The notes under the pieces are model-generated. The model had not been told where the DNA came from, did no database searches, and worked only from the letters and a program-made list of their open reading frames with translations. 45,944 nucleotides of DNA from Paracholeplasma morum (GTDB taxonomy: Bacteria; Bacillota_I; Bacilli_A; Acholeplasmatales; UBA5453): assembly GCF_016907055.1 (NCBI RefSeq), contig NZ_JAFBBG010000012.1, positions 1 through 45,944 of the forward strand. The letters are read 5' to 3'. A program made the translations under genes and the position numbers. The number at the start of each line of letters is the position of its first letter. Within the stretch, counting starts at the first letter, position 1. Below, in pieces: positions 3,271 through 39,442 of this stretch.

Positions 3271-6200
3271 CTAGTAAACTAAATTGTCTACTAAAACGTC
3301 ACGAGTTATTTCGCCATTACTTGAGATTATATATAAATCAGAAGTAAATATGTTATTTAAGTTTGTTTCCCACCAAGTTGCATCTGTAGGAACGGCTTCG
3401 TTGGTCAAAGCTAGCGCGTTGCTATGGTGTGTATTATTGGTGAAACTACCAAAAATACTTGATTGGTCTAATACAACAGTTTGATCTCTGTTGTAACCAA
3501 TTAAACCGGAACGCTCATTATTAACGAATGTAACTTCAAAGTATGCATCCATTAATTCCGCTGTACCAGGGTAACGGTTATAACCAACAAATGCAGCCGT
3601 TACATTACCATCAACGACTGTATCAACAACAACCACACGAACACCGCTGAATACTGTATCTGCGGCGTTTGCGACATACCCGACTAATGCAGATGCGGCA
3701 ACATCACTTGTACCAGTGCCATCTGATTTAACAGATACGCCACTGATAAAGATATCATCCGCGATTACAACCGCGCCACTATCTAATCTACCCACTAGTC
3801 CGCCTACGTTATTAAGGGCATTATGAACATTGGTTTCTGAGATAACAATATTGAATAGACTACTACTCTTAGATATTTGACCTACTAACCCACCAACACC
3901 ATTGGATTCATTTCCAGTGACACTTGAGTTTTTAATCACGATATTTTGAATTGTTGTTTCATTGTTTTCAATTCTACCAACTAAAATACCTGCTCTACCT
4001 GTTCCTGTAACAGAAACATTGTCTAGTACAAGATTTGAAATGACTGCGCCATTCGCTCTTGGGAATACTGCAGAATAAGTGGTTCCTATGAGTGTTAGAT
4101 TTGATATCTCATAGCCTTTTCCATCCAATGAGCCTTTAAATGACGTATTGACATAGGTCCATTCAAACCCTGTAAAGTCTAGATTATTTTCTAATACATA
4201 GCTATAGGTTGATTCCACAGTAGCCATATGATGAAACATTTCTGGTGTAGAGATCTTAATATCGCCTGTTGGAGCTGAGAAATGAGGCACTAAGGTGATA
4301 TTTGAAGTGACTGCAGATTCAAAATCATAGGCAACTCCATCTTTACGCCATTCAGCAAATAGTACTTCCGCGAAGTAATGTGTAGGATCTTCCAATGGTC
4401 TATCAACCTTATCACCATATTCGACTACGACATCTTCACCACCAGTGAATTTGACTGTGTATTTTACCTTAGTCCATACAGCAACCAGTTCAACATTCTC
4501 TAAGATAGGAGTAGAAAAATCAAATGGTTCACCGTCTAATGTCCATGATTGAGCCTCCATCACGAACTCACCAATCATTTGATTAGGCACGACTGGTTTA
4601 GTTGCTAATCCTCCGTAGTTAACGGCTTGATTATCCACCAATACTTCTTGAATGTTGGTTATAAAACTAACCACTGAAGCAGGGGCTGTTTCATATTTAG
4701 CATAAATCGTATCCGCCGCTTCTACCACATAATCCAGAGGTAATGCTACTGTTAAGTTTTCATCTAAGAAGAAACCTTTGAATACATAACCACCAATGGA
4801 TGGTGCTACAAAATCAAATGATTTTCCTTGTCTAATTGAAACGACTTCATTTGGCTCTTCGATGTTATAGATGACTGTAACATCGATAAGAGGTAATGAG
4901 TTTTCTAAATAATTATTAAGAACGAATACGAAGTTTTGATCAATCGTCCATAAATTAGAACTTGTAAACTCTGATAAGTTGGTTGTCCACCATTCTAAAT
5001 TAGTAGGTGTGGTTGTATTCGTAAATGCTTGAGCTTGTGCATGTGTAACTTGATTTTCAATCACGCCAAATATGGAAGTTGTTGAAATCTTATCTGTCTC
5101 ATTACTAACTCTACCAATTAAGCCTGTTGATACCTTGGTTTCATGATTAAATGAGACATCCAAATAAGCGTTAGTAACGGTTACTGTCGGCTTTAGTGTA
5201 TCAGTTGATTTTATGTATCCAATGAGTGCGCCACCGATTTGTGCTTCAATTGTCGTATCAACGATTACGATACGGTTAGCTGTAACGATAGAGGCGTTAC
5301 TATCTCTTACATAGCCTACTAATCCACCAGCCGCGATATCAAGGGCATCAAGAACAGTTGATTTAACGGTTACGCCTAGGACGAATATGTCTGTTGCGAT
5401 TAGCTCACCGCCATCGACTCTACCGACCACAGCACCAACATTCTTAACGCCAGATGCTGTAACTATAGAATCCATTATAGAAACGTTTGAAAGTCTTGTT
5501 TCTTTGGATACTAATCCAATGACGCCACCAACACCATTCGAGTTAGCAGCTGTGATGGATGAATTAGTAATTACGATGTTTTCAATGACTGAACTTGTAT
5601 TTTCTACACGACCCACTAATATACCACCGCGGTCATTTGAGGTCACATGGATGTTATCCAGTACTAAATCTCTAACCATACCGCCATTAATTCTAGCGAA
5701 TAATCCACCGTATTTATCCCCAGTCTTAGTCATGGTTAGATTAGAAATCTTATGCCCATTCCCATAGAACTTCCCCTTAAACGATGTATTACCATCTGCC
5801 CAAGTGATACCTGTTAAATCGATATCCGCTGTTAAAGCATAGGTCTCTTTAATTTCTGTTGCGGTTACTGAGAATACAGATGCGAATGCTTCAGTTGTAT
5901 TAATCTCTATAACGGCTTCTTTAAGAATTTTATGGTTAATGATGTTTGAATCACCATTAAGTTCTACAATCACATGAATGTATTCAAAGCCCTCTACAGA
6001 TAAATCTGTTAATGTGACAGTTTGAGTAATCACATCCACGGATTCTCCTGCTTTAATTTGAAGCGCATCTGCTGTTTCACTGTTACTTAGCAAGTAATAG
6101 AGTTTACCTAAAGGTTGAACGAGTGTAATCGTGATATCAGACTCTTGAACTAAATAGTTTGCTTCACTAGAAACCACACTATTAATCACGTTTGGTTGTG

Positions 6201-7653
6201 CCTTAGAGTACACAGTTACCGTTTGGGTAACACTCTTAACGTCTAATGCATTATGTTTATTGGTAAACGTATAAACTACATCATAGTCACCAGCAACAGC
6301 AGTATCAACTGGATTAGTAACTGTAAGTGTATAGTCAGTATCTAATACAAGTAGGTCTCTCATACCATAGTAGTTATGGATTTTTGGTGTATCTAATGAG
6401 AATGTACTACCTTCTTCAATCGAAACCGTCTCGCGAAGGTCAGTGACATGACCAAGTTTCTTAACTTCTACTGGTCTTGGTAATGCTTCAATACGGTTAG
6501 CTACCAAGTTAGATATGTAAGCTGGTTGTTTTAAGAATTCTGTGTTTGAAGATCCACTTCTAATGAATAGACTTTGAAGTGGGGTAGACCCTGTGTAAGT
6601 AACCTTACCCATAGATAAGGAGACAAGTTGTCCATCTTCATAATAGAACGCTTCAATGGTCTTATTAACTAGGTCTACTTCAACTCTTAACGTATACCAT
6701 TTGTTAACTTCAATTTCAGTCTTCATTAATGTGCCGTTATCGGTTCTATAGAATAGATTAGCACCATCTAACCCGAACGCTACGACTGGGCTTGATGAAG
6801 AGGATTGAATATTGATTGCTGAAGCATTTGAAGAGCTAGACTGCATTAAATCGACTTCAAATACGACAAAATCATAGGAATGTGTAATCGGCGCTTCAAT
6901 TTGAAGTTCACTAAAAGCTTCAATCTTTAAGGCTTTAGAGCCTTTAGGAATTTCAAGTGATTGAGTGGAAACTACAGTGAATTGTGAGTTTCCTGATTTG
7001 GCTGATACTGGTGCCCATAAGCCTGATTGACCAATGATATTACCATCTGTATAACCTTTAAAGTCTTCACTAATTAAAGGTGTGGTTTCACTTAGACTTG
7101 GTAAGGCTAGAACGGTTGCTGTAAATGTCTTTGTACGACTAGCATCATTCTTAGTTAGGGTTGCTGTAAGTGTTACTACTTGGTCCCCTACTTCATGTTC
7201 AGGTTGAGTAATTAACCCATTTGCCTTAATGTAATCTGTCTTGTCAATCGCCCATGTAATGGAAACAGAATCACGAGTGGCTGGGAAAATGATTCTTGGA
7301 GATTGATTCGTTAATCCGGTTAAATCTCCTAAAGATAACCAATCGTAAACTTGATTCACTAATGCAATATCCGAAACAGCCCACATAGCATAAAGTGTAG
7401 TGTTTTCGGTGATTTTATCAGTTTCGAATATAAAACGGTCAGTTAAATCAGAATCCTTATACCAACCTCCAAAAACGAATCCTGGTCTAGTAGGGTCAAC
7501 TGGCTTATTTAAAAGTTTGTCTTTCTCTACTTTGACTTCAGTGATTTCAGTACCTCCATTGGATTCAAATGTAACGGTGTAAGTCGTCTTAGCACACGCC
7601 ACAAGTATCAATCCAAGGGTGATCAATGCGAATAAATTAATGACTCTTTTCAT
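3271..7653 (-). CDS. Giant surface lipoprotein with InlB-type, Ig-like, LamG-like and GLUG-type repeats
   Basis: This 1460-residue protein is exported and lipid-anchored: lipobox LVAC with Cys20. From the N-terminus I see an InlB B-repeat (about 24-92, with FGGWYKDSDLTDRF), a degenerate bacterial Ig-like domain (95-183), a concanavalin/LamG-like region (190-390), another Ig-like region (400-483), a GLUG-type glycine-rich repeat block (585-905), two or three further InlB-like repeats (925-1125) and a second GLUG block (1131-1450). The two GLUG blocks are clearly duplicated, sharing for example SNGVGG, VGGLVGR-like and GxLVGR motifs in the same order. No catalytic motif is recognised. As the last gene of the pectin operon it may bind polysaccharide or plant surfaces, but that is inferred from position and domains only. 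RBS GGAGGAAAT. Confidence 0.85.
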   Translation of the reverse strand: MKRVINLFALITLGLILVACAKTTYTVTFESNGGTEITEVKVEKDKLLNKPVDPTRPGFVFGGWYKDSDLTDRFIFETDKITENTTLYAMWAVSDIALVNQVYDWLSLGDLTGLTNQSPRIIFPATRDSVSITWAIDKTDYIKANGLITQPEHEVGDQVVTLTATLTKNDASRTKTFTATVLALPSLSETTPLISEDFKGYTDGNIIGQSGLWAPVSAKSGNSQFTVVSTQSLEIPKGSKALKIEAFSELQIEAPITHSYDFVVFEVDLMQSSSSNASAINIQSSSSSPVVAFGLDGANLFYRTDNGTLMKTEIEVNKWYTLRVEVDLVNKTIEAFYYEDGQLVSLSMGKVTYTGSTPLQSLFIRSGSSNTEFLKQPAYISNLVANRIEALPRPVEVKKLGHVTDLRETVSIEEGSTFSLDTPKIHNYYGMRDLLVLDTDYTLTVTNPVDTAVAGDYDVVYTFTNKHNALDVKSVTQTVTVYSKAQPNVINSVVSSEANYLVQESDITITLVQPLGKLYYLLSNSETADALQIKAGESVDVITQTVTLTDLSVEGFEYIHVIVELNGDSNIINHKILKEAVIEINTTEAFASVFSVTATEIKETYALTADIDLTGITWADGNTSFKGKFYGNGHKISNLTMTKTGDKYGGLFARINGGMVRDLVLDNIHVTSNDRGGILVGRVENTSSVIENIVITNSSITAANSNGVGGVIGLVSKETRLSNVSIMDSIVTASGVKNVGAVVGRVDGGELIATDIFVLGVTVKSTVLDALDIAAGGLVGYVRDSNASIVTANRIVIVDTTIEAQIGGALIGYIKSTDTLKPTVTVTNAYLDVSFNHETKVSTGLIGRVSNETDKISTTSIFGVIENQVTHAQAQAFTNTTTPTNLEWWTTNLSEFTSSNLWTIDQNFVFVLNNYLENSLPLIDVTVIYNIEEPNEVVSIRQGKSFDFVAPSIGGYVFKGFFLDENLTVALPLDYVVEAADTIYAKYETAPASVVSFITNIQEVLVDNQAVNYGGLATKPVVPNQMIGEFVMEAQSWTLDGEPFDFSTPILENVELVAVWTKVKYTVKFTGGEDVVVEYGDKVDRPLEDPTHYFAEVLFAEWRKDGVAYDFESAVTSNITLVPHFSAPTGDIKISTPEMFHHMATVESTYSYVLENNLDFTGFEWTYVNTSFKGSLDGKGYEISNLTLIGTTYSAVFPRANGAVISNLVLDNVSVTGTGRAGILVGRIENNETTIQNIVIKNSSVTGNESNGVGGLVGQISKSSSLFNIVISETNVHNALNNVGGLVGRLDSGAVVIADDIFISGVSVKSDGTGTSDVAASALVGYVANAADTVFSGVRVVVVDTVVDGNVTAAFVGYNRYPGTAELMDAYFEVTFVNNERSGLIGYNRDQTVVLDQSSIFGSFTNNTHHSNALALTNEAVPTDATWWETNLNNIFTSDLYIISSNGEITRDVLVDNLVY

Positions 7654-7669
7654 ATTTCCTCCCTATTTA

Positions 7670-8134
7670 TTACCCTTTATAATTACTACAAGTAAAGCCT
7701 TCTCTTGGTGCCACAACAAATAACAATTTAGCCCTTCTTGTTTGACCATTTAGGCTTAATACGACATCTATTACAACCGGCCAGTTATCATTAAGCCCAA
7801 TAAACTCTTCATTTACTTGGCCTTGTTGATCACGGGATTCAATCCAGCATGTATTTGGTCTTGTGACAACCCCACTATCGCTAATAATCTCTTTATTGCG
7901 AGATTCATATGTAATTGATACCCCTTTATAAGAAGTTGGAAGACCTAGACTGCCATCCTCAGTAATGGTCGTCTTAGTTTTTGAAGACATTCCTGATAAG
8001 TCTTCTGCTTCAATCAATAAAAGGTATGTGTTATCTAGTTCATTATCTGCTGTTGCACTAGCATTGGATTTTTGACAACCAACTAATGTTATTGCTAAAA
8101 AGCTTAATACTAGTAATCCATATAGTTTTCTCAT
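7670..8134 (-). CDS. Small Ig-like lipoprotein of the pectin operon
   Basis: This is a 154-residue lipoprotein with lipobox LVGC (Cys20). The start is the ATG at 8132-8134, preceded by AGGGGTG; a longer upstream reading frame overlaps the previous gene and lacks a signal peptide. The mature part resembles a degenerate bacterial Ig-like domain: GLPTSYKGVSITYESRNKEI followed by SGVVTRP, the same plan as residues 95-183 of the neighbouring giant lipoprotein. Two further cysteines (C96, C149) could form a disulfide. The function is unknown. It lies between PL2 and the giant lipoprotein and is probably an accessory surface protein. Confidence 0.72.
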   Translation of the reverse strand: MRKLYGLLVLSFLAITLVGCQKSNASATADNELDNTYLLLIEAEDLSGMSSKTKTTITEDGSLGLPTSYKGVSITYESRNKEIISDSGVVTRPNTCWIESRDQQGQVNEEFIGLNDNWPVVIDVVLSLNGQTRRAKLLFVVAPREGFTCSNYKG

Positions 8135-8144
8135 ACAGACACCC

Positions 8145-9911
8145 CTAATCGTATATGGTCTTCGTGTAGACCATGTTTTGTGTGTAGCTTCTGTCTTCAA
8201 CGACACCGTCGTTTGAAAGAAGGTATCCATGAATATATCCACTATCTGCTAAGTAGAAAGGCATCTCATCTAAAGATATGCCTCTAATCACCGCATCAAG
8301 TGTTAATAGTGCAAGTGTATCAGGTTGGTCAAGTCTACTGTAAAGCATTACTTCGGATTCTACAAAGAATCCTCTGTGGAACTTCGCTTCAACAATATTA
8401 TTACCAATGGTTCTAGCAACTTCTAAATAAGCTTCGTTCTTCGTGTAATCGTAAAGTTCTACCATTGCCATTAAGGCATATGGGTCATCAATTGAGGTAT
8501 CCAGGTTTAGATTAGGCTTAGCTCCACCTAATTCTCCAATATCCCCTAACCCAAATGTGTAGACGATATCTCTAAAATAACCCCATAAATCTTGTTGATT
8601 CTCTTTATCTATTGTTTGAAGAATGGTTCTTAGAATTGGAAGTAAGTAAGTGGTTGGCATATCAACATAATCAAGTCTCATTTTGGATGGTCCAAAATAC
8701 CCTACTTCAGGAACGATATAGCCATAAGTAACTGTTCCATCGATAAACATTGGAATGATTTTATTTCTACCATCTACTCTGATATAGGCATATTTCAAAT
8801 AGCCTTCGATATATGTTCTTGCCCAATCAACGAACTCTGTTACACCATATTTATCGGCAGCCTCTAATAACATTAAGATATTATCGACATATACTGCTTG
8901 TGTATTTTTCCATGCGACATTGGCTTCTCTAGCAATCTCTCCAAAATCTCTGAATTGACGTGCAACTCTATCCCCACACCCTGAATTGGTATAAGCTGGA
9001 TCAGCACACTCTATTTGAGATTTTGTAACTAGGGTTGATTTGTATTGATAAACTGTCATCCCTGTCACTGGATTAGACGCTAGGTTATATTGACGCATTA
9101 AGTATTTTGCCCAGTCCGCAGGCACTGGGTCTGATGTATGATTAGAAAGTGTAAATGCGGCATAAGCTAAGTCTGTTGCTGAGTTAACAAATGGCAATAG
9201 CCCTGGTGAATCTGCAGGAATAATTGGATTATTGTTTTCATCCATTTGAATGACATCCAGAGGAATCGTTTGACCAAACACATTTACGTTATAAGCAGTT
9301 GAATAACTGCCGTGACGGTTCATATCGGTTGAATCCCAATAGAAATGTGCAGTCCAGAGTTGTCTCATAAACTTCAGGGTTGCTTCTTCATTCACTTCTA
9401 ACATCAACTCATAGTAAGGCATCATGTTTTTTAGTTCATGAGGCCCATTTGGCCCTTCAAAGCTTTGGACTTCAAGGGTATCAAGGTTAATTGCTCTATG
9501 ACCACCCCATTGGAATAAGCCATTATCAGATTGATAATTGTCCATGAACTCCTCTAGAATACCTACCGCTTCATTTTTATATTTATCACTGTTAGTCACT
9601 TTCGATAATGCGACTAACGTTCTAAAAAAGTTTTGTTGATTGGCTAAATTGGCATAAGGCACTGAAGCTCTATTTGGAAATACCCATTTAGCTGGTTCAC
9701 CAGTAAGTGTATTGATCGCGTCTGGTAGTAAGTTTGTGTCTTCGTTATACTCATGCCCATACTTTAAGACATTTTCAACATAATGGATGACTGAGGATAA
9801 TCTGTTGTAATCTTGTTCAGTATAAATAATGCTATCCGTCTTTCCAATCACATTTGAAGAAACCCATAGACTGGATGTAATAAGTAATAATATGATTAGT
9901 AGTTTTTTCAT
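8145..9911 (-). CDS. Exported PL2-family pectate (exopolygalacturonate) lyase
   Basis: This 588-residue enzyme resembles family 2 polysaccharide lyases, which release unsaturated digalacturonate from polygalacturonate by beta-elimination. Matching blocks include ANQQNFFRTLVALS (90-103), WGGHRAINLDTLE (135-147), HELKNMMPYYELM (158-170) and NRHGSY (198-203). H138, E159, R199 and H200 correspond, with nearly the same spacing, to the metal ligands His, Glu and His and the catalytic Arg described for Yersinia PL2A. Known PL2 enzymes are mostly cytoplasmic or periplasmic in enterobacteria. This one starts with a hydrophobic signal (residues 3-19) and has no lipobox cysteine, so it is secreted or N-terminally anchored. 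It sits 10 bp before the small lipoprotein in the pectin operon. Confidence 0.85.
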   Translation of the reverse strand: MKKLLIILLLITSSLWVSSNVIGKTDSIIYTEQDYNRLSSVIHYVENVLKYGHEYNEDTNLLPDAINTLTGEPAKWVFPNRASVPYANLANQQNFFRTLVALSKVTNSDKYKNEAVGILEEFMDNYQSDNGLFQWGGHRAINLDTLEVQSFEGPNGPHELKNMMPYYELMLEVNEEATLKFMRQLWTAHFYWDSTDMNRHGSYSTAYNVNVFGQTIPLDVIQMDENNNPIIPADSPGLLPFVNSATDLAYAAFTLSNHTSDPVPADWAKYLMRQYNLASNPVTGMTVYQYKSTLVTKSQIECADPAYTNSGCGDRVARQFRDFGEIAREANVAWKNTQAVYVDNILMLLEAADKYGVTEFVDWARTYIEGYLKYAYIRVDGRNKIIPMFIDGTVTYGYIVPEVGYFGPSKMRLDYVDMPTTYLLPILRTILQTIDKENQQDLWGYFRDIVYTFGLGDIGELGGAKPNLNLDTSIDDPYALMAMVELYDYTKNEAYLEVARTIGNNIVEAKFHRGFFVESEVMLYSRLDQPDTLALLTLDAVIRGISLDEMPFYLADSGYIHGYLLSNDGVVEDRSYTQNMVYTKTIYD

Positions 9912-9913
9912 AT

Positions 9914-10771
9914 CTATGGTCTCCTTTCAATGATGACATTATCGATATAGGCATAACTATTCTTATAGTTTCTAGGCATCGTTACTTTAAACACGTTAGG
10001 AACTAAAATCTCTCCTGTGGGTAAAGCATTAACTCTATTTGAAATATGGAATATCCCACTATAAAGCGGTAAGAAAGTGCCTTCATCTTCTAAGTATGCC
10101 GCAAGAAAATCTAAGTCTTTGTCCCATTCGAACTTAAACGTATACCAAGTATCTTTTTCTAATGTGTAACTTGTACTGTGGGTATCCCCACCATCGGCGG
10201 TACCTGAGTAATAAAAGAATGGTCCACCGACTTTAATGTTCACTTTCAAATCTGCATTAATAACCGCTTGAATGGTATTAACTGCACCAGTAGATACACC
10301 AAATGAGATTGAATCTGTTGGTTTATCACTTGGGATTAAGATATCCATATAGGCAACGCCTTTCTTTGAAGTATCTAAATTGAACTTAGTTGAAAAGATG
10401 AATGTTGGATTTGGCGCTGATTGTGGATACATTGGCGCTTTTAATCCGTCTGAGAATAACTCCACATACTGATTAGAATCCTTTGAAACCACAGAAGCTT
10501 TAACCCCATCGGTCTTATACTCTTCATTTCTATACAATAACCAGTTTCTAGGTAATTGCCCTAATCGTTCTGTTTCAAAATCTTCCGTGATTAAGTATTC
10601 TTCTTTAACCGGAGATACAAACTCTAAATCATCGCTTGGGATGTAACATCCTTCAGAAAGTGGTGTATTCTTACATGCGTGATCTAGAACAACAGGCACA
10701 TCTGGTTTCTTTTGGCATCCAGCCAAAAAGAGTATCATCAAAACTAATACTGCAAGAAGCTTTTTCTTCAT
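9914..10771 (-). CDS. LamG/concanavalin-like lipoprotein of the pectin operon
   Basis: This 285-residue lipoprotein has lipobox LAGC (Cys19) and RBS GGAGG. The mature region looks like a beta-sandwich carbohydrate-binding domain. It starts ITEDFETERLGQLPRNW, has a WYTFKFEWDKD strand in the middle, and ends AYIDNVIIERRP. The same layout, with an EDF-G start and a central KWYTLRVEVD-like strand, is seen in residues 190-390 of the giant lipoprotein downstream. No catalytic residues are recognised. It probably binds pectic substrate at the cell surface next to the lyases. The function is inferred from domain type and operon position. Confidence 0.7.
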   Translation of the reverse strand: MKKKLLAVLVLMILFLAGCQKKPDVPVVLDHACKNTPLSEGCYIPSDDLEFVSPVKEEYLITEDFETERLGQLPRNWLLYRNEEYKTDGVKASVVSKDSNQYVELFSDGLKAPMYPQSAPNPTFIFSTKFNLDTSKKGVAYMDILIPSDKPTDSISFGVSTGAVNTIQAVINADLKVNIKVGGPFFYYSGTADGGDTHSTSYTLEKDTWYTFKFEWDKDLDFLAAYLEDEGTFLPLYSGIFHISNRVNALPTGEILVPNVFKVTMPRNYKNSYAYIDNVIIERRP

Positions 10772-10780
10772 ACTAACCTC

Positions 10781-11665
10781 CTAACCTTTAATGGCTGAAT
10801 CTGCGTTGTTACCAACAAAGTATTTTTGTGCCACGAAAAATACGAGAATTAAAATGCTTACCGATACAATCGAACGTGCATACACGTGTGCATACGTATT
10901 GGTGGAATCTAACCCTAATAAAGGTAATACTTTGGCTAATGGGAAAAACTCAGCATTGGTAATGTAAATGAGTGGCCCTTGGAAATCATTGAACTCCGCA
11001 ATGAATAACAATAAAGCGACTGTAATGACTATTGGTTTTAGTACTGGCATTAATACATACCATAATACTTGCAGTTTATTGGCACCATCCATGTACGCGG
11101 CTTCATCTAGGTCGCGTGGGATGGTTCTAAAAAACTGAATGAACATGAATATTGAAAATGAATTTACTGCAAACATCGATCCTGCCCATAGTGGTAAGAA
11201 CCCCATAAATGGTACTGAGTTATTCTCCCATATAGCAGCAATCCCAGGGCTAGTCCAGAAGGCATACATTGGGATTCTAAAAATCGTATTTGGCATTAAA
11301 AGTGTACCAATGACTAACGCAAACACCAACTTCTTCCCTTTAAAGTGCATACGCGTTAAGACATATGCAGTAATGAGGGTTGAAAGTGTTCCAAATATTA
11401 CATGGGGAATAACATACTGCATCGTATTCCAAAGGGCTTTTAGTAACGAATACCCTTTAACGCTACCCCAACCTGGGGCTGTTAGCGATTCTTTCCATCC
11501 GATTAAGGTGAAATCGTTTGGCCAGAAACTAAACTTTGTATTCGCACCTTCATTAAAAGATGCCCCTATGATCCATAAAAGTGGGTATAACATGATAAAT
11601 GCAACCCCAACAATGATTGCGTATTTGAAAAACGCAATGATTCTTTTCTTAGTTTGTTTTCTCAT
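10781..11665 (-). CDS. CUT1 sugar ABC transporter permease, MalG/LacG type
   Basis: This 294-residue membrane protein has about six transmembrane helices. It carries the MalG-type cytoplasmic coupling motif EAAYMDGANKLQVLWYVLMP (about residues 188-207), where the ATPase docks. The N-terminal segment KKRIIAFFKYAIIVGVAFIMLYPLLW is typical of the family. It forms the importer with the MalF-type permease upstream (4-bp gap) and the binding lipoprotein. The context points to oligogalacturonide import. No ATPase gene accompanies the set, so a shared MsmX-like ATPase elsewhere is expected. Confidence 0.92.
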   Translation of the reverse strand: MRKQTKKRIIAFFKYAIIVGVAFIMLYPLLWIIGASFNEGANTKFSFWPNDFTLIGWKESLTAPGWGSVKGYSLLKALWNTMQYVIPHVIFGTLSTLITAYVLTRMHFKGKKLVFALVIGTLLMPNTIFRIPMYAFWTSPGIAAIWENNSVPFMGFLPLWAGSMFAVNSFSIFMFIQFFRTIPRDLDEAAYMDGANKLQVLWYVLMPVLKPIVITVALLLFIAEFNDFQGPLIYITNAEFFPLAKVLPLLGLDSTNTYAHVYARSIVSVSILILVFFVAQKYFVGNNADSAIKG

Positions 11666-11669
11666 AGGC

Positions 11670-12551
11670 TTAGTCCTGATAGTGAACCCAGTATTTACTC
11701 GATCTAAAGATCAATACAGTAAATACCATGATAATTACAAACAATACCCATGACATCGCACTACCAACGTTTAAGTCTCCACCTTTAAAGGCGATGTCAT
11801 ATATGAGTTTATTTAACACATTGGTTGACCCTTCAGGTCCACCATTCGTAATAAGCATTGGGCCATTAAACACCTGAAAGGCTTCTACCAAACGCATGAC
11901 CCCATTGAATAAAATAATAGGGGTAATCATCGGGATGGTTACTTTCATAAACTGTTTAAACTTACCTGCCCCATCAATGGTTGCTGCCTCATATAAGGTC
12001 TCAGGTACATTGACTAAAGCATTTAAGAAGATTAACATCGTTGAACCGAACTGCCAAACTCTCAGTAATACTACCGACATCATCGCTCCACCCGCAGTAC
12101 CTAAAAACGATATTGGTGAAATCCCAAGTAGTTTTAAACCTGAATTGATTAGACCGTTGTATTCAAAGATATAACGCCACAAGATGATTACTGCGACGTT
12201 CGCACCTAAGACGGTTGGCATGTAAAATGCGGTCCTAAAGAACCCAACGCCTTTCATCTTTAAACTTAAGAGGTATGCCACTAACAATGACACAATTAAT
12301 ATGAGTGGTACTGTGACAAACACATAGATGAACGTAACTTTAAGTGAATTTACAAATTCCTCCCCAAGGTAAGTGGATGTATCCATAATGAGTTTAAAGT
12401 TCTTAAGTCCTACAAAGGTAGAGATTCTCCCTCTTTTCTCATATAAGCTCATGACAAATGCGCTTATAAAAGGATATACCTTAAATACGATAAACCCAAC
12501 TAACCAAGGAATTAATAAAACGTATGGTACCCATTTCTTTTCACCTACCAT
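11670..12551 (-). CDS. CUT1 sugar ABC transporter permease, MalF/LacF type
   Basis: This 293-residue permease has about six transmembrane helices. It opens with KKWVPYVLLIPWLVGFIVF and carries the coupling motif EAATIDGAGKFKQFMKVTIP in the expected cytoplasmic loop. The start follows a GGAGG site that overlaps the stop of the binding-protein gene (GGATTAGTATG). It is the partner of the MalG-type permease directly downstream. The substrate is inferred from the flanking PL1 and PL2 lyases to be galacturonate oligomers. Confidence 0.92.
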   Translation of the reverse strand: MVGEKKWVPYVLLIPWLVGFIVFKVYPFISAFVMSLYEKRGRISTFVGLKNFKLIMDTSTYLGEEFVNSLKVTFIYVFVTVPLILIVSLLVAYLLSLKMKGVGFFRTAFYMPTVLGANVAVIILWRYIFEYNGLINSGLKLLGISPISFLGTAGGAMMSVVLLRVWQFGSTMLIFLNALVNVPETLYEAATIDGAGKFKQFMKVTIPMITPIILFNGVMRLVEAFQVFNGPMLITNGGPEGSTNVLNKLIYDIAFKGGDLNVGSAMSWVLFVIIMVFTVLIFRSSKYWVHYQD

Positions 12552-12552
12552 A

Positions 12553-13881
12553 CTAATCCTCCATAATGCGTTTCAGTTCTGCATTAAACTTAGAAATGAT
12601 TCTCGATGCTGCTTCTGTTGCATTGATGTTATTGAGCAAGAAGGATTCAATTGGACCTTCATAAATGGCTCTAAAGGTATTGTGTTCATAATAAGGGTGA
12701 ATGTATAGGTTAATGGATTCTTCTAGTTGATGGTTATACATCGATTGAACAACCTCATGCCCTTTCCATTCTAATGAGTTAGAGTAGTCTGCATCAGACA
12801 CAGCTTTTAGCGCAGTTTGTGTATCTGTATTAGAAGAAACCCCACGGTCAACTCCCAAAATGGCTACTGCTTCTGGGTCAGTAGTCATAAACTCGATAAA
12901 TGTCTTAACAGCTTCTTGTTTTTCTTTACTGCCTTCTACTCTCTTAGAAACTGCATAAGCCATCGATACTTTCTTATACATGCCTAGTGATTCCCCTGAG
13001 GCTTGTTGAAACATCCCAGCCATAACAAGATTAGCATCACTAGGTAAGGTGTTTTGGTATTCAGAGATTGCTGTATTCCATTGTAAGATACCGCCATATT
13101 TTTGTTGAGTCCAGTTTGGATTGGTTGGACCATCAATGTGAGTATCGATCGCATTCGATGGAATGAGTACGCCTGTACTTCTTAAATCCGAGATGAAATT
13201 AAACCCATCTACAAGTTCTGCTTGTGTGAAGTTAAGTTGATTATTCTCATTAATCACATTTTTGCCTGTTTTTTGGGCTAAGTATGAAAACATTAAGATT
13301 GCTACTTGTTGAGCATCTAATCTACCCAGTGCATAATGTGAACTGTTATGTGCTTGAATCGTTTCTCCAGCAACCATGAGTTCTTCCCATGTTTCTGGGA
13401 TGATTCTGTCACCTTCAAAGGAAACCCCTGCATCTTCATAGACTTTTTGATTCAAATAGAAGATATAGCCTGTTTCAGAAACAGATAGTCCTAGAACTTT
13501 TCCATCTACAGTAAGTGGTTTATGTTCGTCGGTTGGGTATTTACTTAAGTCGATTCCAAGTTCCGTAATATCCATGAAATAGTCTTTACCATACATAGAA
13601 TAAATCCAGTTATAGTTTACTTGGAATACATCAGCTTCAGTACCGCGGTTAAGTTTGTTGTTTAATGCTTGTTGGTAACCATTCCATGTGGACTGTTCAC
13701 CTTTGACTTTATATTGTGGGTATTTTTCTTCAAAGAGTTCAATGGCTCTATAGGTAGCCACGTTTCGATCAGAGGTTCCCCACCAACCAAATGTGATTTC
13801 ATTATCAGCTGTTTTCTTTCCACATGCTGATAAAACTACGACTGTGATTAAGACTAATAAAACAGATACTACTTTTTTCAT
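12553..13881 (-). CDS. Extracellular solute-binding lipoprotein for pectin oligosaccharides (predicted)
   Basis: This 442-residue CUT1-type binding protein has lipobox LSAC (Cys20). The start is ATG at 13879-13881, six bases after GAGGAG; an in-frame ATG five codons earlier forms part of that ribosome-binding site and is rejected. The mature protein shows family landmarks: EITFGWWGTSDRN at the start, an NKLNRGTEADVFQVNYNW segment, PETWEELMVAGETI, and a C-terminal AVKTFIEFMTTDPEAV segment. In a wall-less cell such a protein is tethered to the outer face of the membrane. It should hand substrate to the two permeases downstream. The specificity for unsaturated or saturated oligogalacturonides is inferred from operon context. 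Confidence 0.9.
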   Translation of the reverse strand: MKKVVSVLLVLITVVVLSACGKKTADNEITFGWWGTSDRNVATYRAIELFEEKYPQYKVKGEQSTWNGYQQALNNKLNRGTEADVFQVNYNWIYSMYGKDYFMDITELGIDLSKYPTDEHKPLTVDGKVLGLSVSETGYIFYLNQKVYEDAGVSFEGDRIIPETWEELMVAGETIQAHNSSHYALGRLDAQQVAILMFSYLAQKTGKNVINENNQLNFTQAELVDGFNFISDLRSTGVLIPSNAIDTHIDGPTNPNWTQQKYGGILQWNTAISEYQNTLPSDANLVMAGMFQQASGESLGMYKKVSMAYAVSKRVEGSKEKQEAVKTFIEFMTTDPEAVAILGVDRGVSSNTDTQTALKAVSDADYSNSLEWKGHEVVQSMYNHQLEESINLYIHPYYEHNTFRAIYEGPIESFLLNNINATEAASRIISKFNAELKRIMED

Positions 13882-13892
13882 GTGAATTCTCC

Positions 13893-15323
13893 TCATTGAC
13901 TTAAATTTGTGTTAATTGATAACCAATCAAAGGTTTCGATGGTTTGTGCACCTGTTGGAAAGCTTTTAAATGTGTCTTTCAAATAATAGATGTCTTCTAA
14001 GAGATACTTATAAGGTATTGCCTTATAGTTTCTCATTTGATAAGGCAAGTAATTACTGCCATTATGAACCCATAGAGAGTTCTTATCTTCACTAGAGCCG
14101 AAATAGGTTCTATTGGCAGTAATCAATTCTGAGTTTGTCACTTGATAGGCCCCTGTGTACTTTAGATCAGGGTTACTATCTTGATGATTCTTTATTGGCG
14201 TTGAAACAAACATATAGATTGAGTTTTCAAGTAAGATAGACCCTTCTTCGGTACTTACTAACCCTTGATTAACAAATGATAGATTTGGGCTATTCAGTTT
14301 AAGCCTTAACTCGTGTATGCGCGTATTATCTAATATCATGTGATATAGATGCGCATCCCCTTTTCTGATTCTCGGCATTCTATCCATTAGATTAAACACT
14401 TCTAAATGATGAAACGTCATCGTAATGTCTTCGAAGCCTTCACCATCTGTAGTGTTACCTAAATTGAAGCCCTTCTTTTGAAAACTCATGAATAGTTCTA
14501 AGTCTTCTTTTGAAATCCCTTCATTTCTTAATGAATCATAGTATGGATGCGTACTTCTATTCTCTTCAAGGTAATGGATTTGTGTACTAATAAAGTCATT
14601 TGGATTGAAATTAAGTTTTGACCAAGATAGCGTTACATTTTTAGAATGTTCTCTTAAATCAATAATGCCATCATAAGCTTGGTCAAATGTTAAATGATCA
14701 AACCATATGCCATTAACATTCTTTAGACCAAAATAGTCCCAGTCATTTCGTTTATATCCACCTGTTGAGGTTTCATCCCATTCCCATAACTCAGAAAAAT
14801 GAATGTTTCTGAATACCAGGTTATTAGAATCTTCAATAAGAAAAGCTGCATGTTTAATCTTAATACCCGATTCTGAGTAAATCACTAAGTCAGATCGATT
14901 AAGCAGTCTTACTTCACCTATACCACTTTCCATTAAAGTTGGATGTGTCAGTGGGGTATTTCTATGGGCTCTATAGACATTCTTATAATCGTTTAGTGTT
15001 TTTCCAACTTCTTCTAGCTTTATGCTTAACTCCTTTGACCCTAAGGATAAATCATTCATTAATTTGATTATCATGACTTCTTCATTCATTAAAGCATCTA
15101 GAAACTCAATTTCATTAGTAACAACTTCTATATCATTCTTATAACTAGAACGATCTGTAATAACCAACGAAGAAAAACCAAATGGGTTTTGAAACCTAGA
15201 ATAATCAATAACAGGTTTATCATTTGGTATGGTTGTATCGGGTTTGTCAGTTACAGTGGGTTTAGTACAAGAGGCCATCATAGATACTAAACATAATACA
15301 AATACCAGTGAAAGTCTTTTCAT
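13893..15323 (-). CDS. PL1-family pectate lyase lipoprotein
   Basis: This 476-residue parallel beta-helix lyase cuts polygalacturonate by beta-elimination. The start is ATG at 15321-15323 after GGAGAT; the longer frame adds ten residues before the signal peptide. The lipobox is MASC with Cys19, so the enzyme is anchored outside the membrane. Family motifs are LVFRNIHFSELWEWD (169-183), NGIWFDHLTFDQAYDGIIDL (204-223, equivalent to the classic WIDH and YDGLLDI blocks), VTLSW (230-234) and DRMPRIRKGDAHLY (314-327, with the conserved arginines and the HVYNNYF-type strand). It is the first gene of the operon, directly behind a cre-containing promoter. Confidence 0.9.
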   Translation of the reverse strand: MKRLSLVFVLCLVSMMASCTKPTVTDKPDTTIPNDKPVIDYSRFQNPFGFSSLVITDRSSYKNDIEVVTNEIEFLDALMNEEVMIIKLMNDLSLGSKELSIKLEEVGKTLNDYKNVYRAHRNTPLTHPTLMESGIGEVRLLNRSDLVIYSESGIKIKHAAFLIEDSNNLVFRNIHFSELWEWDETSTGGYKRNDWDYFGLKNVNGIWFDHLTFDQAYDGIIDLREHSKNVTLSWSKLNFNPNDFISTQIHYLEENRSTHPYYDSLRNEGISKEDLELFMSFQKKGFNLGNTTDGEGFEDITMTFHHLEVFNLMDRMPRIRKGDAHLYHMILDNTRIHELRLKLNSPNLSFVNQGLVSTEEGSILLENSIYMFVSTPIKNHQDSNPDLKYTGAYQVTNSELITANRTYFGSSEDKNSLWVHNGSNYLPYQMRNYKAIPYKYLLEDIYYLKDTFKSFPTGAQTIETFDWLSINTNLSQ

Positions 15324-15369
15324 GTTATCTCCATCGTTTATTATATTGAACACTGTTTATTTCTATTAA

Positions 15370-15407
15370 ATTATACCATGAGTTAACCAAAAATGTCAAC
15401 GCTTACA
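15370..15407 (-). promoter_or_regulatory. Pectin-operon promoter with a cre-type operator over the -35 box
   Basis: On the minus strand the -35 TTGACA (15394-15399) and the -10 TATAAT (15370-15375) are separated by 18 bp. TGTAAGCGTTGACA at 15394-15407 fits the catabolite-responsive-element consensus TGWAANCGNTNWCA at every position and covers the -35 box. CcpA or another LacI-family repressor is the likely ligand. Binding there would block RNA polymerase. Confidence 0.85.
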
Positions 15408-22241: not shown

Positions 22242-23666
22242 ATGAATATTCTTTTTTGTGCAAGTGAAGCCTACCCATTTTCTAAGTCAGGCGGCTTAGC
22301 AGATATGGCTTCAGCACTGCCAAAAATAATTAATCAAAAAGGTGAGAAAGCCATTGTGATAACCCCATTTTATGATGCTTTATACGATAAGAAGTCCTCA
22401 TTCAAATGGATTGGTTCTAAAGACATTTTAATCCAAGATGTTGTCTACGAGGCGAACTTCTATGAAACATTTTACGATGGCGTTACTTATGTATTTGTCG
22501 AGAATGAAACATTCTTTAAACGAGCCAACTATTACGGCTACTATGATGATGATAAAAGGTTCTTATTCTTCTCTTATGCAATCTTAGAATACATACCGAT
22601 TAGTAAAGTCAAGTTTGACCTACTTCACATCAATGACTGGCAGACGGGATTAGTCCCATTCTTACTGGATGATATTTACAGGGTTAATCCACTTTATAAA
22701 GACATTAAAACACTACTTACCATCCATAATTTGGAATACCAAGGGTCATTTCCTAAGGATGCGCATAAGCTGATTAATCGTCCGTTCAATTATGCCTACA
22801 TTCACTTTGACCGTATGAATTATTTGAAAGCAGCCATAATGAGAGCCAATCATATTAATACTGTAAGCCCTACTTACAGAGAGGAAGTTCAATATGAGTA
22901 TTATGGTTTTACTCTAGATGGTGCTTTAAAATCTAGACTCAATCATTTCTCAGGAATCCTAAATGGCATTGACTATGAAATCTATAATCCTGAAACAGAC
23001 ACACTGATTGAACAAACATTTAACTACAAGCATTTCAGTTCTGCAAAAAAGAAGAACAAACTTGCCTTATTAAAAAAATTAAACCTCGATATGTCTACTG
23101 ACACAGCGCTTGTAGCGTATATCGGAAGACTAGCAAAACAAAAAGGAATTGACTTAATGATGGCAACCCTTGAAGAAGCAATAGCTGAAAGCACTGCTAA
23201 ATTCGTATTTATCGGTAGTGGTGACCCTTTATATGAAGACTTTTTCAGAAAACTTCAAGAAAAATACCGTACAAGAGTCTATAGTTTTATCGGGTTTAAC
23301 AACACCCTTGCACATCAACTCTATGCAAGTGCTGACATCTTAATGATGCCAAGTCAGTTTGAGCCTTGTGGGCTTGGTCAATTGATGGCTATGCGTTATG
23401 GATGCTTACCGCTTGTAAGAGAAACGGGTGGTCTTAAAGATACCGTAACACCGTATAACAAATACACGAAGGATGGTCATGGATTTAGCTTCTCAAACTA
23501 CAATGCACATGAACTCAAACAAGTGTTACTAGATGCAATCCTTCTTTATGCGAACAATCAAGACGATTGGAAGATATTAGTTAGAAACGCAATGAAACAA
23601 GACCATTCGCTTGAACAAATGGGCAAGGAATACCTAGAACTATACGAAAGAATACTTAAATCATAA
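22242..23666 (+). CDS. glgA: Glycogen/starch synthase
   Basis: This 474-residue GT5 enzyme extends alpha-1,4-glucan from ADP-glucose. The ADP-glucose motif KSGGLADMASALP is at residues 15-27. Other family blocks are LLHINDWQTGLVPF, HNLEYQGSFP, NGIDYEIYNPETD, YIGRLAKQKGIDLM and the C-terminal PSQFEPCGLGQLMAMRYGCLP. The length is typical. glgC follows 12 bp downstream and supplies the substrate. No branching-enzyme, phosphorylase or debranching gene is nearby. Confidence 0.95.
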   Translation: MNILFCASEAYPFSKSGGLADMASALPKIINQKGEKAIVITPFYDALYDKKSSFKWIGSKDILIQDVVYEANFYETFYDGVTYVFVENETFFKRANYYGYYDDDKRFLFFSYAILEYIPISKVKFDLLHINDWQTGLVPFLLDDIYRVNPLYKDIKTLLTIHNLEYQGSFPKDAHKLINRPFNYAYIHFDRMNYLKAAIMRANHINTVSPTYREEVQYEYYGFTLDGALKSRLNHFSGILNGIDYEIYNPETDTLIEQTFNYKHFSSAKKKNKLALLKKLNLDMSTDTALVAYIGRLAKQKGIDLMMATLEEAIAESTAKFVFIGSGDPLYEDFFRKLQEKYRTRVYSFIGFNNTLAHQLYASADILMMPSQFEPCGLGQLMAMRYGCLPLVRETGGLKDTVTPYNKYTKDGHGFSFSNYNAHELKQVLLDAILLYANNQDDWKILVRNAMKQDHSLEQMGKEYLELYERILKS

Positions 23667-23678
23667 AGGAGAAACCCT

Positions 23679-24908
23679 ATGGAAACATTAGCATTGATTT
23701 TAGCTGGAGGAAAAGGCTCTAGACTAGATATATTATCAGAAAAACGCAGTAAACCGGCTGTACCATTTGCTGGTAAATTTAGAATCATCGACTTCTCACT
23801 TTCAAACTGTGCGAACTCAGGCATTTATGATATCGCAATCCTAACACAATACTTACCATTCTCACTTAACGAACACATCGGTTCCGGTAAACCATGGGAT
23901 CTAGACAGAAGAGATTCTCAAGTCACACTACTTCAACCTCATAATGAATGGTATATGGGAACTGCAGACTCTGTGTTAAAAAACTTGAATTTCGTTAAGC
24001 GTAGAGACCCAAAGTACATTTTAATACTCTCTGGCGATCATATCTATAAAATGAACTATAAAAAGATGATTGATTTCCACATTGAAAAAGGTGCAAAACT
24101 TACGATTGCAACTCAACAAGTACCCTTCGAAGAGGCACACCGTTTTGGAATCATGGAAACCGACAAAAACTCAAGAATCATCGGGTTTGAAGAAAAGCCA
24201 AAACAACCTAAATCTAACCAAGCATCCATGGGTATTTATGTATTTTCCGCTGAAGTGTTATACAATGCTTTAGAAACCATTAAAGACCCTAACCTAGATT
24301 TTGGTAAACATATTATTCCAAGTCTAATCAACAACCATAATACCCCTGTCTATGGGTATGAGTTTAATGGTTATTGGCGCGATGTAGGTACCTATGATTC
24401 CTACCTTCAAACCAATATCGAACTCCTTAATATGCAAGAACCGAGACTGGACCTTTATAGTGATCAATGGAAGATCTATACGCGAAGCGAAGAAATGCCA
24501 CCTGTAAGAGTTGGCAATAATGCGAAAATTGTTAACTCATTAATCTCTAACGGTTCTGTTATCGATGGCACAGTAATCAATAGTGTATTAAGCCCAGGCG
24601 TTCGTGTTGAAAAAGGCGCTGTAGTGAGAGATTCTGTTATTCTAAACAATACGATTATCAGTGAGAATGCGGTTGTTGATAAAGCCATTCTCGATAAGAA
24701 AGTCTATGTTGGTAGAAACGCAATTATTGGGTTTGGTGAAGACTATACACCAAATGAAGAAAGACCAAATGTCCTATCATCTGGTATTAATGTCATTGAA
24801 AAACATGGCTTCGTTCCAGATGGTGCGAAGATTCCACGTAACTGTAGAATTTATAGAAATGCCAAGTTTGATCAATTAGAAATTAAATCTGGTTCAACCA
24901 TAAGATAA
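23679..24908 (+). CDS. glgC: Glucose-1-phosphate adenylyltransferase
   Basis: This 409-residue ADP-glucose pyrophosphorylase makes ADP-glucose from ATP and glucose-1-phosphate. The nucleotide-binding start is ALILAGGKGSRLDILSEKRS, followed by KPAVPFAGKFRIIDF, PHNEWYMGTADSV, LSGDHIYKMNYKKM, HRFGIM, FEEKP, ASMGIYVF and GYWRDVGTYDSY. The C-terminal third is a left-handed beta-helix with hexapeptide repeats (about 285-400). It has catalytic residues of a GlgC type rather than the inactive GlgD type as far as can be seen. It is the second gene after glgA with AAGGAG upstream. Confidence 0.93.
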   Translation: METLALILAGGKGSRLDILSEKRSKPAVPFAGKFRIIDFSLSNCANSGIYDIAILTQYLPFSLNEHIGSGKPWDLDRRDSQVTLLQPHNEWYMGTADSVLKNLNFVKRRDPKYILILSGDHIYKMNYKKMIDFHIEKGAKLTIATQQVPFEEAHRFGIMETDKNSRIIGFEEKPKQPKSNQASMGIYVFSAEVLYNALETIKDPNLDFGKHIIPSLINNHNTPVYGYEFNGYWRDVGTYDSYLQTNIELLNMQEPRLDLYSDQWKIYTRSEEMPPVRVGNNAKIVNSLISNGSVIDGTVINSVLSPGVRVEKGAVVRDSVILNNTIISENAVVDKAILDKKVYVGRNAIIGFGEDYTPNEERPNVLSSGINVIEKHGFVPDGAKIPRNCRIYRNAKFDQLEIKSGSTIR

Positions 24909-28011: not shown

Positions 28012-28105
28012 AAAATCACCTTCTTTTAATTATATCAAAATAAGACTATTTTTCCTAACATTCGCATTTATGAATTGTTCTTGTTATAATAGATTTGGTG
28101 ATAAT

Positions 28106-29038
28106 ATGGAAGTTTATGACTTAAGACCTAGAGGCTATTGCCATGGCGTAGCTAAAGCGCTAAGCATGGTAAAAAAAGCATCCCTAGACGAATCAATCCC
28201 AAAGCCTATTTACGTGCTGGGGTTAATCGTTCACAATAAAAAAATAACTGAAGCGTTTAAATCACTTGGCGTCATCAGTTTAGATACCCCTAACAAGACG
28301 CGTTTAGAGTTGCTTGATTTAGTAGATCAAGGTACTGTGATTATGACCGCTCATGGTGTGTCCGATGGTGTAAAAGAGAAAGCACTAAATAAGTCACTCA
28401 ACGTTATTGATGCGACTTGTAAGGATGTAACTAAAGTTCATGATGCTGTCAAGAATCATCTAAAAGAGGGTTACGAAATCGTATATATTGGTCATAAGAA
28501 CCACCCTGAACCAGAAGGCGTATTAGGGATTAGTAAAGAGATTACTTTCTTAACAAACAAGACTGATGCGATGAACTATCAAATGAGAAACCCACACCAT
28601 AAGTTATTTGTAACCAATCAAACTACCCTGTCTAGATATGACATCAATGTGGTCTTAGATGTATTAAGACTTAAATACCCTGACTTAATCTTTGATGATG
28701 ACATTTGTGATGCAACTACTTTAAGACAAAAAGCAGTCATTGACCAACCTCAAGTTGAGTTATGTATTGTTGTGGGAGACACCTTATCATCCAATTCTAA
28801 CAAGCTACAATTTGTTTCAGAACACGAGCGCAATATCAAATCATTCCGTGTTGAGGATATTTCTGAAATCAACCCAGAATGGTTTAAGGGCATAAAAAAA
28901 ATCTCACTGACTAGTGGTGCTTCTACACCTACTGCTGTTACCAATGAGATACTAGGTTTCTTAAGACAATTCAATTATGAAGACAAATCCACTTGGGATA
29001 CTACTTCAAAACTCACGTATTTGGATATTTTAGGCTAA
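28106..29038 (+). CDS. ispH: 4-hydroxy-3-methylbut-2-enyl diphosphate reductase
   Basis: This 310-residue iron-sulfur enzyme catalyses the last step of the MEP pathway, forming IPP and DMAPP. Cluster cysteines are C12 (RGYCHGV), C105 (IDATCKDV) and C201 (ICDATT), at the expected spacing. Substrate-site motifs LIVHNK, MTAHGVS, IGHKNHPEPEGVLG, TNQTTLS and SLTSGASTPTAV are all present. The start is the ATG at 28106 with GGTGAT upstream. A longer frame begins upstream of the TATAAT box (28085-28090) and is not plausible. It belongs with dxs (37378-39225) in the same pathway. Confidence 0.95.
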   Translation: MEVYDLRPRGYCHGVAKALSMVKKASLDESIPKPIYVLGLIVHNKKITEAFKSLGVISLDTPNKTRLELLDLVDQGTVIMTAHGVSDGVKEKALNKSLNVIDATCKDVTKVHDAVKNHLKEGYEIVYIGHKNHPEPEGVLGISKEITFLTNKTDAMNYQMRNPHHKLFVTNQTTLSRYDINVVLDVLRLKYPDLIFDDDICDATTLRQKAVIDQPQVELCIVVGDTLSSNSNKLQFVSEHERNIKSFRVEDISEINPEWFKGIKKISLTSGASTPTAVTNEILGFLRQFNYEDKSTWDTTSKLTYLDILG

Positions 29039-36698: not shown

Positions 36699-37391
36699 CT
36701 ATTTGTTAAGGATTAATAAATACTCCTGGTTACCCATTTTGCCTTTTAAGTCGCTTTTCTTACTGCCTATGATTTTGAATCCTAATGCACTTACATATTC
36801 GATAATACCATTTAAAGCTTCTTTTTGCTTTAAAGGGTTAGTAACAATGCCATTTTTGATGTATTTTGGGCCAACCTCGAACTGAGGTTTGACCAAAACA
36901 ATGTAAAGACCTTGTGTATCTTTGATATGGGTTAATATGGGTTTAACTGATGTAAACGACACATCCACTGTAAAAAGCCTAATTGATGGGTCAAGTGTGA
37001 CATCTAATATGTTGGTTTGTTCAAATAGTTTGACCTTAGGATGGTTTCTTAATGAATCATGAAGTTGGTTACTACCAACATCGTAAGCATAAACCAACGA
37101 TACCCCTTCTTGTAGGGCACAATCCGTAAATCCGCCTGTAGAAGAACCGATATCTGCCATCACTAAACCCTTGATATCGATCTTGAAACTGTCGATAGCA
37201 TCTTTGAGTTTTAATCCACCTCTTGAAACATAAGGGAGGTCATCAATGATGGTTACAGTTTCCTCTTTAAGTTCATACCCTGTCTTAGTTACAACCACGC
37301 CATTAACCAAGACTTTTTCTTGTTTGATTAAATCTTGAGCTTGACTTCTGGTTTTATTAAAGACCATAACCATATACCTATCGAGTCTCAT
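36699..37391 (-). CDS. tlyA: TlyA-family rRNA 2'-O-methyltransferase
   Basis: This 230-residue protein combines an N-terminal S4 RNA-binding domain (LDRYMVMVFNKTRSQAQDLI, QEKVLVNGVVV) with an FtsJ-type methyltransferase (VMADIGSSTGGFTDCALQ as the AdoMet loop, VKPQFEVGPKYI later). TlyA modifies 23S and 16S rRNA cytidines. The start is ATG at 37389-37391 after AAAGG, overlapping the end of dxs by 14 bp. A longer frame exists but adds a non-homologous leader. Confidence 0.92.
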   Translation of the reverse strand: MRLDRYMVMVFNKTRSQAQDLIKQEKVLVNGVVVTKTGYELKEETVTIIDDLPYVSRGGLKLKDAIDSFKIDIKGLVMADIGSSTGGFTDCALQEGVSLVYAYDVGSNQLHDSLRNHPKVKLFEQTNILDVTLDPSIRLFTVDVSFTSVKPILTHIKDTQGLYIVLVKPQFEVGPKYIKNGIVTNPLKQKEALNGIIEYVSALGFKIIGSKKSDLKGKMGNQEYLLILNK

Positions 37392-39225: not shown

Positions 39226-39229
39226 AGGT

Positions 39230-39442
39230 TTATTCAAGACTAAAGTCTAATTCGCCTTCCGGTTTCATTTCTTTGACGACTAGTTTTTCAGATTCAGTTA
39301 ATAACTCATAACATAGTTTAGATAGCGCTAAACCTTCATTGTAAAGTTTTACAGCTTCATCTAAAGCGATGTCCTTGTTTTCGAGTGCCTTAACGGTTTT
39401 CTCTAAAGCTTGAATGGCTTGTTCAAAACTCATTTTTTCCAT
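39230..39442 (-). CDS. xseB: Exodeoxyribonuclease VII small subunit
   Basis: This is a 70-residue helical subunit: MSFEQAIQALEKTVKALENK, then LDEAVKLYNEGLALSKLC and LTESEKLVVK. It forms a complex with XseA and regulates single-strand DNA degradation. Its start overlaps the end of xseA by 13 bp, and its stop comes 4 bp before the chosen dxs ATG. The length is typical. Confidence 0.95.
   Translation of the reverse strand: MEKMSFEQAIQALEKTVKALENKDIALDEAVKLYNEGLALSKLCYELLTESEKLVVKEMKPEGELDFSLE

Follow-up and report, generated by a model that had tools for sequence, protein, structure and literature searches.

The 45,944-nucleotide stretch of DNA considered here (contig NZ_JAFBBG010000012.1 of Paracholeplasma morum, assembly GCF_016907055.1, analysed whole and referred to below as the window) contains a cluster of eight genes that runs on the minus strand from position 15323 to 3271. 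This cluster is very probably a homogalacturonan-utilisation operon, built as a Gram-positive-type system and carried by a wall-less bacterium of the acholeplasma type. This reading is drawn from the two lyases and the importer encoded in the cluster, a uronate catabolic cluster elsewhere in the genome, a palindrome common to promoters of both systems, the absence of cell wall genes and the colinearity of the cluster in related genomes. A first-pass annotation had described one predicted transcript for PL1 and PL2 lyases, a solute-binding protein, two permeases and three further lipoproteins, and all of these genes are borne out by the open reading frames and their Pfam matches.

The lyases, the importer and the surface lipoproteins

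All eight genes are open under translation table 11 with TGA as a stop, which is the usage of acholeplasmas, and the gaps between them measure about 1 to 16 bases. A reading under code 4, in which TGA encodes tryptophan, was dropped, as the genes are already open in table 11. The order, with all coordinates on the minus strand, is PL1 pectate lyase (13893..15323), solute-binding lipoprotein of an ATP-binding cassette (ABC) importer (12553..13881), permease A (11670..12551), permease B (10781..11665), a 285-residue lipoprotein (9914..10771), PL2 pectate lyase (8145..9911), a 154-residue lipoprotein (7670..8134) and a 1460-residue surface lipoprotein (3271..7653), where the likeliest start codons of the binding protein (ATG at 13881) and of the small lipoprotein (8134) have been revised. 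The binding protein matches PF13416/PF01547 (SBP_bac_8, E 1e-17), and both permeases match PF00528 (BPD_transp_1).

Lipoboxes are found in PL1 (MASC), in the binding protein (LSAC, conserved) and in the three accessory proteins, with the lipobox cysteines kept in relatives, while PL2 has a Sec-type signal peptide and no lipobox. From this distribution, five of the eight products are predicted to be lipid-anchored, two are permeases and PL2 would be secreted free. The earlier view that most of the products are anchored at the surface therefore stands for five of them, PL1 included, and does not extend to PL2. No terminator was found between position 3271 and the next minus-strand gene, whose upstream end lies at 2902; this downstream region (388-2902) encodes a P-type ATPase and, after it, a Crp/Fnr-type regulator.

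The PL2 enzyme matches PF06917 over its full length (E 1.9e-163, profile positions 1-490 of 491). Its closest solved structure is the exopolygalacturonate lyase 5a29 (E 5e-113), to which it aligns over the whole length, as it also does to 2v8i and 6ojk, two enzymes of the Yersinia type. The residues H138, E159, R199 and H200, aligned to 2v8i and 5a29, are invariant in ten mollicute relatives; we take H138, E159 and H200 to be the metal site and R199 to be the catalytic arginine, a position at which 6ojl has a lysine. Identity of PL2 is 69-89% inside the mollicute clade and about 42% or less to the other bacteria in the scan. As for PL1, the match to PF00544 is weak by Pfam (E 2.6e-8), yet the protein matches the solved pectate lyase 5gt5 with an E value of 1.4e-71. 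Its motifs YDGIID and RMPRIR (the latter within RMPRIRKGDAH) align with 5gt5 and 3zsc in the region of the calcium-site aspartate and in the RxPxxR motif, and presumably have the corresponding functions. Judged by these alignments, both lyases retain the catalytic motifs of their families and are predicted to act as pectate lyases. In the operon of A. brassicae the PL1 slot (L040:3328-5259) holds a very divergent PL1 of 643 residues, with 36% identity and a branch of 3.23, which by its sequence appears to be a gene replaced in place; on account of this very long branch it was excluded from the tree conclusions given below.

Three accessory lipoproteins complete the cluster. The AlphaFold2 model of the 285-residue protein is a concanavalin-like jelly roll (predicted local distance difference test score, pLDDT, 69.8), with VIA Z scores of 14-17 to jelly-roll carbohydrate-active proteins that include a BT_1020 domain, PL7 lyases, Aly36B, CBM66 and SO2946. 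The modelled fold suggests that the protein probably binds carbohydrate, although an unrecognised enzyme is also conceivable; with regard to a lyase role, no known catalytic motif was seen in it and the fold matches, spread over many families, are generic. The small lipoprotein has an atrophied Ig-like domain (PF20578, E 4e-5, below the cut-off) and is present in every cluster that is not interrupted by a contig end. The 1460-residue protein combines an InlB-type repeat (PF09479, Flg_new), an Ig-like domain (PF20578, aBig_2), a jelly roll and two GLUG beta-helix regions (PF05342, M26_N), and its N-terminal 599 residues were modelled as several beta domains with a pLDDT of 87.5. A protease role for this protein was considered and rejected, as the M26_N match covers just the GLUG-type N-terminal part and there is no protease domain. 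Because they always accompany the operon, the three accessory proteins probably keep either the polymer or the cell in position at the bare membrane.

Uronate catabolism and candidate regulatory sites

Outside the window, contig C4 of the same genome carries a cluster encoding KduD and KduI (both above NCBIfam cut-offs), a TIM-barrel protein, an IclR-family regulator with a weak match to the KdgR model, a kinase of the type acting on 2-keto-3-deoxygluconate (KDG), a YhcH-type protein, an aldolase for 2-keto-3-deoxy-6-phosphogluconate (KDPG), GH28 and a UgpC/MsmX-type ATPase. Within 20 kb of this cluster lie a second importer, a CE8 pectinesterase with no evident signal peptide, UxaC and tagaturonate reductase (UxaB), both above cut-off, and an altronate/galactarate dehydratase, while GH88/105 sits on contig C10. 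The operon itself is devoid of an ATPase gene; the genome has two MalK-type ATPases, one of them within the uronate cluster. Ten pathway proteins compared with A. brassicae are 53-93% identical. Going by these matches, no downstream step expected in homogalacturonan catabolism is missing from the genome. Where the binding protein of the second importer would be expected (L084:3746-6310), there is an 854-residue lipoprotein that has Big_3 domains but in which no binding-protein domain is recognised.

Upstream of PL1 lies a promoter, TTGACA-18-TATAAT with an extended TG (15370..15399, minus strand), which matches the sigma-70 hexamers at 12 of 12 positions, ends 46 bases ahead of the PL1 start and is found at the same position in relatives; the whole window has two such perfect hexamer pairs against 0.09 expected. 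Its -35 box is overlapped by a candidate CcpA site, a sequence resembling a catabolite-responsive element (cre), TGTAAGCGTTGACA (15394..15407, minus strand). This site matches TGWNANCGNTNWCA, which we take to be the loose cre consensus and which has one match in the window against 0.17 expected, whereas the stricter form TGWAARCGYTWNCW has no match there. Just downstream of the -10 box, the palindrome GTGTTCAATATAATAAAC (15336..15353, minus strand) is a candidate operator. Both the TGTAAGCGTTGACA site that overlaps the -35 box and the palindrome after the -10 box recur upstream of PL1 in nearly all relatives, the former being conserved as TG[TA]AAGCGTTGACA in most of them. The genome also encodes a CcpA-like LacI regulator (286 bits, below the NCBIfam cut-off).

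A weight matrix for the palindrome, trained on other genomes, gave its two highest scores in 106 kb of the organism's own DNA for the promoters of uxaB (21.3) and PL1 (16.0), against best scores of 4.2 to 15.8 in each of ten shuffled controls. The palindrome is common to the two promoters, and induction through the uronate regulator together with catabolite repression are reasonable proposals for the control of the PL1 promoter.

The pathway that these genes suggest would begin at the cell surface, where the lipid-anchored PL1 may cut de-esterified polygalacturonate, probably endolytically, and the secreted PL2 may reduce the chains, probably in an exolytic manner, to short unsaturated oligogalacturonides. 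These would be imported by the binding lipoprotein and the two permeases, powered by a shared MsmX/UgpC-type ATPase encoded on another contig, and depolymerisation would be completed in the cytoplasm by CE8, GH28 and GH105. The unsaturated unit would be converted to KDG via KduI and KduD, and galacturonate would reach the same intermediate via UxaC, UxaB and the UxaA-like dehydratase, after which KDG kinase and KDPG aldolase could yield pyruvate and glyceraldehyde-3-phosphate for fermentation. Transcription would probably be induced via the palindromic operator, for which the IclR-family protein of the uronate cluster is the candidate regulator, and the cre-like site probably gives catabolite repression.

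The wall-less host and the recurrence of the operon

The window is one contig (C12) of a 29-contig draft genome of 1,556,252 bases that is 99% complete. A search for the transpeptidase domain of penicillin-binding proteins found none in this genome; the same search was positive in 10 of 14 control genomes, which indicates that it works. No MurC-F ligases were found either, and the sole Mur-ligase-type match was identified as FolC, with a score of 373.6 bits where the cut-off is 162.65. The host genome is thus, from its gene content, that of a wall-less, acholeplasma-type organism. The draft state of the assembly leaves room for the idea that the contig is a mis-binned fragment from a walled bacterium, and one relative, G008, shows what this could look like: scored 100% complete, it has its PL2 operon on an 8055-bp contig (C11, L043) in a genome devoid of GH88, KduI and UxaC, so that the contig may be mis-binned, or the lyases may be present without the catabolism. 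For the window, such an origin is extremely improbable. Operons of the same genus are colinear and 63-89% identical on contigs of up to 167 kb, the operon also lies in the complete, single-contig chromosome of A. brassicae (1,877,792 bases) and in an isolate genome, that of Peloplasma aerotolerans M4Ah, a cultured mollicute without a cell wall obtained from a mud volcano, and the genome under study has a matching uronate cluster and palindrome of its own. The earlier attribution of the operon to a wall-less bacterium is hence upheld.

Among genomes of the same order, some in family f3 have six Mur-ligase matches and others one, even inside genus g6, and G016 has seventeen; these counts hint at repeated loss of the wall and at an odd expansion of the ligases. 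Elsewhere in the window, Dxs (37378-39237) and IspH (LytB; 28070-29038) represent non-mevalonate isoprenoid genes retained in a wall-less bacterium, and starch/glycogen synthase and GlgC-type genes (22242-24908) represent the synthesis of a storage polymer.

Examination of related genomes for the cluster revealed the same gene order in about 19 others, either whole or interrupted by contig ends, a recurrence that argues against chance. Colinearity of all eight genes was seen in the A. brassicae genus, in the Peloplasma lineage, P. aerotolerans M4Ah included, and in several further metagenome-assembled genomes (MAGs); two MAG clusters show no PL1. In the rpoB tree, two families are split by long, fully supported branches. 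In the operon tree, by contrast, the operon of the window and three others of the same genus nest in the Peloplasma lineage (98/96), and that of A. brassicae is placed elsewhere. In approximately unbiased (AU) tests, the genus was rejected as a single clade with p 0.034, and the Peloplasma lineage with p 0.046. Both values are barely below 0.05, and the groups were named after the tree had been seen, which makes the support for transfer modest. The conflict between the two trees and the AU tests suggest that the operon was probably exchanged between families of the Acholeplasmatales, and the genomic neighbours of the operon, which differ between lineages, fit such a transfer. No sign of it was seen in composition, as neither the GC content of the operon nor that at third codon positions differs usefully from the neighbours. 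The RpoB open frames (L097-L111) measure about 1480-1495 residues in family f1 against about 1285 in f4, which suggests that some 200 residues are inserted in the f1 protein.

Besides the narrow p-values, several points weigh against the interpretation as a homogalacturonan operon. The Pfam score of PL1 is modest, and the UxaA-like protein matches a galactarate dehydratase model with a score below its cut-off. The degenerate operator pattern is not enriched genome-wide, with 11 matches in the organism's own genome against 12 for a reversed control, and of the two operator searches the weight matrix alone is informative. The exolytic and endolytic modes ascribed to PL2 and PL1, as well as the substrate of the importer, are taken by analogy from relatives, and the published description of P. 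aerotolerans M4Ah reports no pectin test. Furthermore, PL2 is absent from two genomes of the same genus, G003 (99% complete) and G002, despite a uronate pathway in which GH88, KduI and UxaC are kept, although one of the two genomes is only 85% complete; both organisms are possible scavengers of oligogalacturonides.

The scavenger-like G003 also bears on the idea that the true substrate is not plant pectin but another polyuronide, for example an exopolymer of algae or microbes, or else oligomers that other microbes leave behind. The habitats of relatives other than the two named species, suggested by MAG titles only, are in many cases non-plant, and the jelly-roll lipoprotein resembles alginate and glucuronan lyase folds among many others. 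Nevertheless, that resemblance is of the generic kind described above, and PL1, PL2, GH28, CE8 and UxaC/UxaB jointly indicate an alpha-1,4-galacturonan in characterised systems, which makes a different substrate unlikely. Somewhat less likely still is the proposal that the operon has less to do with feeding than with attaching to living plants, or colonising them, through softening of the pectin matrix. It draws on the plant-surface origin of A. brassicae, as given by the title of its description, on the large InlB/GLUG surface protein, a possible adhesin that is always in the cluster, and on the detection of 16S sequences of the genus in one plant stem sample (PMC12472997). Conversely, nutrition is favoured by the position of the importer genes, which are flanked by the lyases, by the complete catabolic pathway and by the palindrome common with uxaB, and the carriers include the mud volcano isolate and, by the titles of their MAGs, organisms from other non-plant sources.

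Relation to known pectin systems and significance

The system proposed here for homogalacturonan utilisation is of a known type with known chemistry; it is a variant by virtue of its lineage, its use of PL2 and its three constant surface proteins. The KdgR-regulated pectin regulon of the enterobacteria Dickeya and Pectobacterium comprises a Kdu/Uxa/Kdg pathway and an IclR-family regulator. Both appear to be present here, combined with ABC import of Gram-positive type and with a different candidate palindrome. With regard to PL2, the enzyme is of the same family as 5a29 and the Yersinia proteins over its full length and retains the metal and catalytic residues, but in contrast to the PL2 of Gram-negative bacteria it would be secreted by a wall-less cell with a single membrane.

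Paenibacillus amylolyticus 27C64 has extracellular endo- and exo-acting lyases, a cytoplasmic GH105 and a putative pectin methylesterase and polygalacturonase in the cytoplasm (PMC7267202), and the same division between extracellular lyases and cytoplasmic enzymes is predicted here. The present system differs from it in having two lyases where P. amylolyticus has five, an operon that encodes no pectin lyase, a predicted exolytic role for PL2, a PL1 that is a lipoprotein, no cell wall and three extra surface lipoproteins. The importer resembles YtcQP-YteP and YesOPQ of Bacillus subtilis, importers of galacturonate oligomers which have no ATPase of their own and are served by MsmX (PMC5730181): here, too, a binding protein and two permeases are encoded without an ATPase, and an MsmX-type protein would act in trans. 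In contrast to B. subtilis, the lyases lie within the importer operon and the ATPase gene within the uronate catabolic cluster.

The first-pass annotation had called such a system unexpected in mollicutes, an assessment that we would temper to moderately surprising. The literature searched contained no report of mollicutes using pectin; the A. brassicae genome paper (2014) lay outside its coverage, so that an earlier mention is possible, and the known chemistry limits the surprise. The usual picture of mollicutes is one of reduced parasites that live on host sugars, and the Acholeplasmatales also hold the phytoplasmas. The recurrence of the operon in related genomes points to an overlooked lifestyle of plant-polymer degradation, and growth on plant material is a sensible expectation from the gene content. 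More tentatively, and with a little less than even confidence, free-living wall-less bacteria may be primary pectin degraders, in which a transferable module of eight genes, with a tethered endolyase, a free exolyase and three unstudied surface lipoproteins, holds and digests a plant polymer at the bare membrane and has been passed between families of the Acholeplasmatales. The PL2 enzymes of mollicutes are far from the enterobacterial ones, and the operon offers a simple model for polysaccharide capture on a bare membrane. Together with its conserved and apparently regulated promoter, the pectin system makes wall-less bacteria candidate primary degraders of plant debris.

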